A stretch of 64,000 bases of DNA, taken from assembly GCF_009834565.1 (NCBI RefSeq), contig NZ_CP019428.1, forward strand, positions 1,426,001-1,490,000, written 5' to 3'. Under the pieces are notes generated by a model that was not told the origin of the DNA, made no database searches, and saw only the letters and a list, made by a program, of their open reading frames with translations. The translations under genes and the position numbers were made by a program. The stretch is from Pseudomonas sp. R76 (lineage in GTDB: Bacteria; Pseudomonadota; Gammaproteobacteria; Pseudomonadales; Pseudomonadaceae). Of this stretch, positions 52,525 to 53,831 are shown in pieces; the stretch's first letter is position 1; each line of letters starts with the position of its first letter.

Positions 52525-52638
52525 GATCGTTCCCACGCTCCGCGTGGTAACGCACCCTATGACGCTCCGCGTCACGATTTTAGGAGCCGGACGCAGAGCG
52601 TCCGTAGCGGCATTCCCACGCAGAGCGTGGGAACGATC
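52525..52638. repeat. GATCGTTCCCACGC-type palindromic repeat, copy 4
   Basis: A 114-base member with the same length and inner GACGCTCCGCGTC hairpin as the tandem units 650 bases away, so it is probably the closest relative of the array. Located between the PBP gene and the small DUF gene. Confidence 0.88.
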
Positions 52639-52652
52639 AAGATCAAATGTGT

Positions 52653-52955
52653 TCAGGCAGGCGTTTTTACCGGGTTCAGGCACTCGATAGAGCGGTCCAC
52701 GGTGGTCTTGGCCATCTCCAGCAAATGCCACACCGCCAGAATTTTCGCCCGCTCGGGGCCAGGCAGCAGCTCACTGCAATTGAGCGTTGTGGCCGAAGCG
52801 CTGTCGAGCAAGCTTGCGGTGTAGAGCAGGGCGTCTTCGAAGCTCAGGTCTTGGATGTGAACGCCTTGGGTGGGCAGGTAATGGTCGATGGCGCGGTTGA
52901 AGGCGGCACGGGCTTTGGCTGAAGTGTGGGGTGGGTCGGGGACGACTTTTTTCAT
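52653..52955 (-). CDS. small Pseudomonas-type protein (DUF3077/DUF6124-like)
   Basis: A 100-aa cytoplasmic protein. The opening MKKVVPDPPHTS and the pattern LSFEDALLYTASLLDSASATTLNCSELLPGPERAKILAVWHLLEMAKTTVDRS match the small proteins of pseudomonads listed as DUF3077/DUF6124; no function is known. The RBS CACAAGGAA lies eight bases before the ATG and is perfectly complementary to a loop in the leader about 75 bases upstream, so translation is probably controlled by RNA structure. Confidence 0.75.
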   Translation of the reverse strand: MKKVVPDPPHTSAKARAAFNRAIDHYLPTQGVHIQDLSFEDALLYTASLLDSASATTLNCSELLPGPERAKILAVWHLLEMAKTTVDRSIECLNPVKTPA

Positions 52956-52962
52956 GGGTTAA

Positions 52963-53085
52963 TTCCTTGTGTGAATTAGGAACCAACACCTGTCGCGACT
53001 AAACGATGGGTGGCGGCTGTACGCAGGTTAGTCGACCGGCCACAAGGAAACCGGCGCACCCGAAGGTGCCCTGCGCACAGCCACC
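52963..53085 (-). promoter_or_regulatory. structured 5' leader with anti-Shine-Dalgarno loop
   Basis: Read on the minus strand: a long outer stem (53070-53085 with 53009-53027, about 16 pairs with one bulge) encloses two arms. Arm A, 53056-53069, is GCACC-UUCG-GGUGC, a C(UUCG)G tetraloop. Arm B, 53036-53054, is CCGG-loop-CCGG, and its loop holds UUCCUUGUG (53041-53049), the perfect 9-base complement of the gene's Shine-Dalgarno region CACAAGGAA (52963-52971). The whole is flanked by direct repeats GCGACTAAAC (52995-53004 and 53124-53133 on the plus strand), and a further hairpin TCACTG-atgag-CAGTGA lies at 53138-53154. Structure drawn by hand. Confidence 0.65.
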
Positions 53086-53096
53086 ATAAACTTCAT
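53028..53096 (-). CDS. putative 22-aa leader peptide
   Basis: An open frame ATG (53096) to TAA (53028) that starts MKFMVAVRRAPSGAPV and ends in Asp. It lies entirely in the structured leader: its codons form arm A, and the Ser-Leu-Trp codons form the anti-Shine-Dalgarno loop. A possible ribosome site, CACAAGG (53108-53114 region), is 11 bases upstream; a three-codon frame (ATG 53104) ends in an ATGA overlap with it. Peptides containing VRRAPSGAPVSL recur in my memory of pseudomonad annotations, which hints at conservation. Translation of the peptide is inferred. Confidence 0.45.
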   Translation of the reverse strand: MKFMVAVRRAPSGAPVSLWPVD

Positions 53097-53289
53097 GTGG
53101 CCATGCGCCTTGTGTCAATCCGAGCGACTAAACCCGATCACTGATGAGCAGTGACGGATCGCAGACTAGCCATCGATTCCAACAGGCACAAGGCGGCAGG
53201 GATTGTCTAGGAAACGTCCTGCAATTTAAAGAGACGCGCCTTGCTGGCCTTTTAAAAACCATGACCAGATGCCACTAACCCCACCCATT

Positions 53290-53831
53290 GATCGTTCCCA
53301 CGCTCCGCGTGGGAACGCACCCTGTGACGCTCCGCGTCACGCCTTCAAGAGCCGGACGCAGAGCGTCCGTAACGGCATTCCCACGCAGAGCGTGGGAACG
53401 ATCGCGGAGATCGACGGTGTTGATCGTTCCCACGCTCCGCGTGGGAACGCACCCTGTGACGCTCCGCGTCACGCCTTCAAGAGCCGGACGCAGAGCGTCC
53501 ATAGCGGCATTCCCACGCAGAGCGTGGGAACGATCGCGGAGATCGACGGTGATGATCGTTCCCTCGCTCCGCGTGGGAATGCCCCCTGTGACGCTCCGCG
53601 TCACGACTTCAAGAGCCGGACGCAGAGCGTCCGTAGCGGCATTCCCACGCAGAGCGTGGGAACGATCGCGCAGATCGACGGTGTTGATCGTTCCCACGCT
53701 CCGCGTGGGAATGCCCCCTGTGACGCTCCGCGTCACGCCTTCAAGAGCCGGACGCAGAGCGTCCGTAGCGGCATTCCCACGCAGAGCGTGGGAACGATAA
53801 TGCACCTAGTGCGTGGGAACGATCGCGCAGT
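53290..53831. repeat. tandem array of four GATCGTTCCCACGC palindromes, 132-bp period
   Basis: Units start at 53290, 53422, 53554 and 53686, exactly 132 bases apart. Each is a 114-base imperfect palindrome (outer stem GATCGTTCCCACGC/GCGTGGGAACGATC, two inner hairpins) followed by an 18-base linker GCGGAGATCGACGGTGTT or close variant. Units differ by only a few bases (for instance TCCCTCGC in unit 3, GATA instead of GATC at the end of unit 4). A fifth, end-only fragment lies at 53810-53831. Because 132 is a multiple of three, several frames stay open across it; none is taken as coding. Confidence 0.92.

Follow-up and report, generated by a model that had tools for sequence, protein, structure and literature searches.

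The locus

The window analyzed here is a stretch of 64 kb from the genome of Pseudomonas sp. R76. On its minus strand, which also carries the leader features described below, it contains a gene for a protein of 100 residues that matches the DUF6124 family (52653..52955; PF19619, E 3.8e-9). Seven bases separate its start codon, ATG at 52953-52955, from a Shine-Dalgarno (SD) region, CACAAGGAA, at 52963..52971. An AlphaFold model of the protein comprises three helices (mean pLDDT 82, pTM 0.58) and had no match in PDB or BFVD at E <= 0.001.

Upstream of the gene lie two 10-base direct repeats, GCGACTAAAC, at 52995-53004 and 53124-53133, and a promoter-like site at 53163..53191, with TTGTGC as −35 hexamer (53186-53191), a spacer of 17 nt and TAGTCT as −10 hexamer (53163-53168). 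This leader also contains a frame of 22 codons (53028-53096). An earlier note on this DNA had described the leader as a structured RNA, bounded by the repeats and covered by the 22-codon frame, and had proposed that it controls translation of the gene.

The leader as a C4 antisense RNA

The minus strand of 52955-53161 is predicted to fold with −94.3 kcal/mol (z −6.0, none of 200 shuffles as good). The same stretch on the plus strand yielded z −2.8 (1 of 200 shuffles), and a plus-strand structure was rejected because its fold is weaker. At gathering scores, the sole Rfam match in the 64-kb window was to the C4 antisense RNA family (RF01695), at 53006-53091, which scored 85.5 bits where the gathering cut-off is 45. 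The earlier note had known of no named riboswitch or Rfam class for the element; this claim does not hold, and the readings as a riboswitch or a novel class were rejected, since Rfam names it. Judged by its sequence, the leader is a C4 antisense RNA and hence of a known kind.

The family is named for the C4 RNA of phages P1 and P7. It was first found in P1, for which we rely on the account of Citron & Schuster 1990 and Hartmann et al. 1995 as rendered in parts of PMC5320573 and PMC8198154 and in the P1 record. We use the P1 nomenclature throughout, calling the hairpin loop that faces the ribosome site b' and the segment at the junction a'. The P1 record annotates, in this order, a promoter, a1, b1, C4 (77 nt), a2, b2, icd and ant, where a2 lies 3' of C4, as in the window, and b2 just before icd. 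The ends of the RNA in the window were derived from this annotation (77 nt, GG start after UUAU). Cut at the UUAU^GG and GCCACC positions that correspond to those in P1, the window RNA also measures 77 nt; this predicted mature C4 RNA extends over 53009..53085 and starts with GGUGGCUG after UUUAU. On its own it is predicted to form a three-way junction (−52.2 kcal/mol, z −6.5), so that the structured RNA of the earlier note is confirmed, including the arm capped by a UUCG tetraloop (53056..53069).

The loop that had been recognized as complementary to the ribosome site, UUCCUUGUG at 53041..53049, is the b' loop. It is the exact 9-base complement of the SD region, which is its b2 target, and also has a 7-nt complement, CACAAGG, at 53108..53114 (b1); the longest upstream run listed for b' by our script at this locus is a different 7-mer at the edge of C4. 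The a' junction segment, CGACUAA at 53028..53034, has exact 7-nt matches on both sides of C4, in each case UUAGUCG: downstream at 52996..53002 (a2) and upstream at 53125..53131 (a1). Both copies of the direct repeat are therefore present as described, and what they hold are the a2 (3' copy) and a1 (5' copy) targets of a' rather than the borders of the element. Because the loop is complementary to the SD of the gene, translational control, as proposed, is probable.

Upstream of C4, at 53117..53169, a leader hairpin and the a1 hairpin correspond to the c4-a1b1 element (RF03163), which likewise consists of a hairpin and an a1 hairpin upstream of C4. The window copy differs in its score of 35.0 bits (E 5e-7), which is below the gathering score of 46.7 and surfaces under a laxer threshold; 12 of the 33 R76 copies are above it.

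In summary, P1 C4 and the window RNA share the three-way junction, the UUCG-type arm, the b' hairpin loop, the a' junction and the GG 5' end, and in both, a1-b1 lie upstream, a2 and an SD-overlapping b2 downstream, and the target ORF directly 3'. Since the order promoter, a1, b1, C4, a2, b2, gene matches that of P1, the UUCG arm, the anti-SD loop and the 10-base repeats are all accounted for. The differences are that the R76 C4s are chromosomal and present in multiple copies, and that the target in the window is a DUF6124 gene whereas in P1 it is icd-ant. The locus is thus no immI operon of the P1 type (c4-icd-ant); 3 of the 33 R76 targets described below are Bro-N proteins. The P22 sar RNA, which according to parts of PMC12197685 blocks translation of the ant antirepressor as an antisense RNA, is similar in this respect, yet a different RNA.

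C4 modules in the R76 genome

The R76 genome contains 37 C4 matches, 36 of them over the cut-off (U01-U37; the window copy is U02), 33 matches to a1b1, of which 12 are over the cut-off, and 24 to DUF6124, of which 23 are. In 34 of the 37 cases, an ATG with an ORF is found 44-55 nt 3' of C4, encoding a DUF6124, DUF3077, Bro-N or unassigned protein (the search spanned 42-57 nt 3' of C4 and took the longest frame). We refer to these 34 as modules; their counts leave out U33 and U37, two further C4s in tandem ahead of U23, as well as U35, where the nearest 230 nt contain no 60-codon ORF and a DUF6124 match lies about 1.4 kb further on. The tandem triplet U37, U33, U23 (C1:2201331-2201786) lies upstream of a single DUF6124 gene, and its outer members, U37 and U33, differ in their loops and have no linked gene.

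Four modules (U06, U07, U13 and U21) begin with a short ORF of 24-52 codons, and a larger gene follows with an ATG that overlaps the stop of the short one by 4 nt; in P1, icd and ant1 show a parallel (48691/48688). Taking the larger gene for these four, we obtained 33 distinct target proteins, with those of U27 and U30 being identical. At E <= 0.01, 22 of the 33 match DUF6124, 12 DUF3077 (the two families overlap) and 3 Bro-N; in single scans, the targets of U01, U07, U15, U17 and U32 had no Pfam family at this threshold. In PHROGs, antirepressor families are matched by three targets and families without known function by five and four. Scans of six target proteins against NCBIfam yielded no family over the cut-off.

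An alignment of the 34 paralogues supports the structure, with 97.6% of cells paired and changes on both sides in 13 of 22 pairs. The covariation score was 0.463, against 0.263 in shuffles; none of 500 shuffles scored as high and slid versions of the structure all scored far lower, with the caveat that the structure was taken from the same alignment, which favors it, and that related sequences can exceed such shuffles. All five pairs of the UUCG arm changed on both sides among the 34 copies. The RNAalifold structure retains just two pairs of the b' hairpin, the loop of which is gapped in the alignment. The stems thus covary, and the lack of covariation that would have spoken against the earlier note was not seen. 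By the features that define membership in RF01695, namely a score over the gathering cut-off, a covarying three-way junction, a' and b' targets and a1-b1 targets, all of which are present, the window RNA belongs to the C4 family.

Two DUF6124 genes of the R76 genome carry an a1b1 match and no C4 match (L040:965-1075, genome position C1:4832564-4832674; L039:645-740, C1:2047244-2047339). Their SD follows close behind a1b1, and L040 has 8-nt matches to the loops of U08 and U26. The two genes could be targets of the C4 of other copies, or genes that have escaped. Two more DUF6124 genes, in L041 and L042, are without C4.

At the window locus, REP-like inverted repeats with the cores GTTCCCACGC and GCGTGGGAAC flank the module at 52528-52645 and 53288-53811, in tandem on the right side; such cores, considered as borders of the cassette, occur in 11 of the 34 loci fetched from the R76 genome. 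Upstream of the promoter, about 85 bp (window 53200-53288) are 83-97% identical to related modules and include a AGGACGTTTCCT box; GTTTCC-like boxes recur in many paralogues. For most listed loci, similarity ends at about 53281-53288, as if at the 5' border of a cassette; among them, it continues past about 53288 in L080, L081, L082, L087, L106 and L138.

C4 RNAs have been listed for Proteobacteria and phages (Weinberg et al. 2010; parts of PMC2864571), and one C4-like RNA for Burkholderia cenocepacia (parts of PMC4603805), and multicopy C4 is also already in print: the available parts of PMC5320573 report 21 C4-like RNAs in Acinetobacter baumannii, with signs of processing. In strain AB5075, these Group 1 C4-like sRNAs resemble those of R76 in that all 21 lie in one chromosome and have a variable target loop. 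They differ in that their targets were left open there, whereas in R76 34 of 37 have a gene linked in cis, the leader of which has diverged in step. As a kind, C4 is ordinary, and what is unusual here is the copy number and the way in which the copies keep their addresses apart.

Pairing with own and foreign targets

We compared each C4 with the targets of its own and of all other modules by the longest Watson-Crick run. Over the 34 modules, b' had a mean run of 7.71 with its own SD region and of 4.44 with foreign ones, and a' of 7.03 with its own a2 and of 4.12 with foreign ones. The summed mean run was 14.74 for own and 8.56 for foreign targets, and sums this high arose in none of 20,000 permutations. 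By the summed score, the own target came first in 32 of 34 modules with ties included, and strictly first in 27; against insulation of the modules, a foreign target was better in two and there was a tie in five. On b' alone the own target was strictly best in 17 of 34, on a' alone in 8. The 34 modules have 34 distinct b' loops and 21 different a' sequences. Matches to a' of at least 7 nt were found in a2 in 33 of 34 modules and upstream of C4 in all 34. Taken together, the C4s of the modules mostly match their own gene best.

These scores replaced an energy-based pairing matrix that included the CCGG stems; it was weaker, with the own target first in 13 of 34, the CCGG stems pairing with everything.

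Own pairing also exceeded foreign pairing among 68 C4 copies at 65 related loci (none of 5,000 permutations), which comprise 63 of the 67 loci found by protein search and two viral contigs and hold 60 distinct, not independent C4 sequences, and among 36 loci from the genus and order (none of 5,000 permutations), which are matches of other genomes, 33 of them distinct. With Watson-Crick pairs only, the own run of loop and SD did not exceed 5 nt in 7 of 34 modules, 18 of 68 related-locus copies and 3 of 36 other loci. With G-U pairs allowed, the minimum was 6, 6 and 7, respectively, and runs of exactly 6 occurred in 2 of 34, 2 of 68 and 0 of 36, the two among the 68 being loci with a truncated gene match. 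Family, structure, covariation, self-specific complementarity and gene linkage are in this way established here.

Leader peptide, processing site and pairing in cis

The 22-codon frame, which spans the structure in the window, had suggested translation attenuation by a leader peptide. The frame exists as described, and its conservation is what fails: the start codon chosen occurs in 1 of 34 paralogues, 6 of 68 related-locus copies and none of the 36 other loci. It is located 9 nt upstream of an inner AUG that is more frequent (28 of 34, 65 of 68 and 35 of 36), which belongs to the C4 consensus AU^GG at the processing site, and from which the frame runs for anything from 8 to 263 codons across the three sets. 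In addition, the 34 copies of C4 range in length from 83 to 92 nt and do not differ by multiples of three. Over the 34, 68 and 36 copies there is thus no conserved upstream ORF of the kind an attenuator would need; with its start codon rare and its length variable, the frame has no support for a conserved coding function, and we regard a leader peptide as extremely improbable.

A different question is whether C4 acts as a free RNA. The complementarity that we observe would serve equally well in a cis-acting switch, in which C4 stays folded within the mRNA and sequesters the SD by pairing its loops with a2 and b2 of that molecule. On the predicted transcript, which C4 and its targets share, the distance between them is indeed no more than about 50 nt. 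Against such a switch, all 34 modules repeat the a address upstream of C4, and the presence of the same addresses there fits a diffusible RNA. A cis-acting switch also does not agree well with the putative processing site, UUUAU^GG in the window, the GG of which is kept in 34 of 34 paralogues, 67 of 68 related-locus copies and 34 of 36 other loci, nor with the processing of C4-like RNAs in Acinetobacter that is reported in the parts of PMC5320573 available. We therefore consider pairing in cis unlikely and prefer a C4 antisense RNA that is released from the transcript.

Distribution

C4 is common in Pseudomonas. Matches at E <= 0.001 were found in 54 of the 59 genomes sampled from the genus, R76 included, with a median copy number of 17, at least 20 copies in 26 genomes and a maximum of at least 54; as 61 candidates were scored per genome, the larger numbers may be underestimates. 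In a subset of 40 genomes, the copy numbers of C4 and DUF6124 are correlated (Spearman 0.85), and the four of the 40 that are without C4 are also without DUF6124. Across the order, C4 was present in 15 of 115 genomes, those other than R76 (G000) with at least 1-6 copies (34 candidates scored), and in the phylum 30 of 200 (per-genome counts scored up to 20).

A search with the protein alone yielded 67 loci, all titled Pseudomonas, and 60 of these have a C4 on the 5' side of the match, at a distance of 30-75 nt. Among the remaining seven, where matches are partial, C4 touches the match in two, is 900 nt away in one and is absent from four.

The loci of the seven closest permease homologues (74-94% identity) in relatives had no C4 match within 1.5 kb on each side. 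Four of them, L156, L160, L161 and L162, also retain the gene for the penicillin-binding protein that borders the other side. The counterpart of window 52521-53916 in L156 measures about 350 bp, in which tblastn found no DUF6124. The cassette was thus either gained in R76 or lost in these relatives.

A tblastn search of 50,697 phage records with the DUF6124 protein of the window gave no match at E <= 0.01, and two IMG/VR viral contigs encode relatives with 33-35% identity that have C4 upstream. C4-like DNA was found in 13 plasmid records and in 9 phage records (Pseudomonas phages, 7 by name), with C4 confirmed in the three that were fetched. A prophage of P. fluorescens Q8r1-96 (L148, EU982300) has a C4 at 1593-1679, near the repressor gene prtR; its a address is the same as in the window, its b loop is different, and it precedes an ORF of unknown function.

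That phages carry C4 raises the question whether the chromosomal copies form a bank acting in trans, which would silence incoming phages with matching C4-controlled antirepressors, in the way that C4 works in P1 immunity, and in which the linked genes would be secondary, an idea also raised for Acinetobacter in the parts of PMC5320573 available. It would agree with the three Bro-N proteins among the R76 targets and the three matches to antirepressor families. A comparison of five phage and plasmid targets, one of them P1 of E. coli, is divided: the target of PAJU2 pairs longer with U32 and U15 of R76 (sum 13) than with the C4 of PAJU2 itself (11), but for the other four targets their own C4 (14-16) surpasses the best R76 C4 (11-14). 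Further, 34 of 37 R76 copies are located directly before an ORF and overall pair best with it, and the window protein is without a match in the phage records, the relatives in the two viral contigs notwithstanding. A bank in trans seems to us quite unlikely, and we return to C4 as a regulator of the gene linked to it.

A possible attenuator upstream of C4

A promoter-like layout precedes a1b1 in 34 of the 35 C4 copies scanned, with TANNNT and a −35-like hexamer 17-19 nt before it; the spacer is 17 in 28 copies and the −35 hexamer starts with TTG in 32, numbers that are descriptive, since the scan required TA...T and favored TTG and 17.

Between b1 and C4, many modules have the series GGCG(C)...GCGCC...GGCG(C)-TTTTT, of which we identified by eye a variant in P1, GCGG...CCGC...GCGG-TATTTTT. 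The first segment of the series overlaps or adjoins b1. We computed the probability of the terminator in the 16 of 34 modules that were usable (16 have no T-run and 2 no b1 match of at least 6). Upon marking a1 and b1 as bound, the mean rose from 0.44 to 0.71 (Wilcoxon p 0.0017), compared with 0.47 in a control that blocks just stretches 5' of a1, in sequences that are related and not independent. The probability went up by more than 0.2 in seven modules and down by more than 0.2 in one, several others being already high when free. A first version with 18 units, two of which lacked the b1 match, gave 0.40, 0.64 and, for the control, 0.42. In 20 distinct genus and order loci, which remained of the 36 after the exclusion of 11 without T-run, 3 without b1, 1 without a1 and 1 duplicate, the mean was 0.38 when free and 0.67 when bound (p 0.0003; 0.36 in the control), with 12 up by more than 0.2 and 1 down. 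The values for P1 were 0.55 and 0.82 (control 0.55). These folding calculations predict that, in P1 and some of the sister modules, binding of C4 favors a terminator that precedes the C4 sequence. There is no T-run upstream of C4 in the window module, nor in 65 of the 68 related-locus copies; we therefore claim no attenuator for the window.

Proposed mechanism

The window element is, with high probability, a chromosomal C4 antisense RNA module that controls the DUF6124 gene. Among the points against it, the a1b1 element stays below its gathering score, and the complementarity fits a free RNA and pairing within one transcript alike. As to transcription, processing, direction of regulation and attenuation, we infer the following course. 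A single transcript would start upstream of a1-b1 and run through C4 into the DUF6124 gene, and RNase P and other nucleases would free the 77-nt C4 from it, as in P1. With its a' and b' paired to the a2 and b2 of its own gene's leader, C4 would cover the ribosome site and keep the DUF6124 protein off. The same C4 would pair with a1-b1 on new transcripts and in this way limit its own synthesis, for which the attenuator between b1 and C4 is the predicted means in some sister modules and in P1. As each module has its own a/b address, the many copies in one genome would mostly act on themselves.

A broader reading, which we offer tentatively as a possibility, is that C4 in Pseudomonas constitutes an expandable system of chromosomal cassettes with private a/b addresses, insulated copies and self-attenuation via b'-b1. 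The address would be repeated three times in each cassette (a1b1, a'b' and a2b2) and changed in step. New copies would drift to a new address and so escape silencing by their sisters, leading to dozens of insulated switches per genome. Pairing of b' with b1 would open an antiterminator and free the terminator upstream of C4, a role that would be common to P1.

In the parts of the literature searched, we found no description of C4-DUF6124 modules; DUF3077 appears there as a pseudogene in a study of furfural in P. putida. What seemed an orphan riboswitch is thereby connected to a known mechanism. The a1-b1 sites of the classical P1 system, so far unexplained, become testable, and if the attenuator is real, these sites, 'putative' in the P1 record, gain a role, with C4 limiting its own transcription. 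The 34 naturally evolved and mostly self-matching pairs constitute a data set on the duplication of an RNA regulator without cross-talk. For DUF6124 and DUF3077, which are widespread in Pseudomonas and nearly absent from the literature searched, the modules point to a likely shared control, in which each gene would have an antisense RNA of its own as off-switch.
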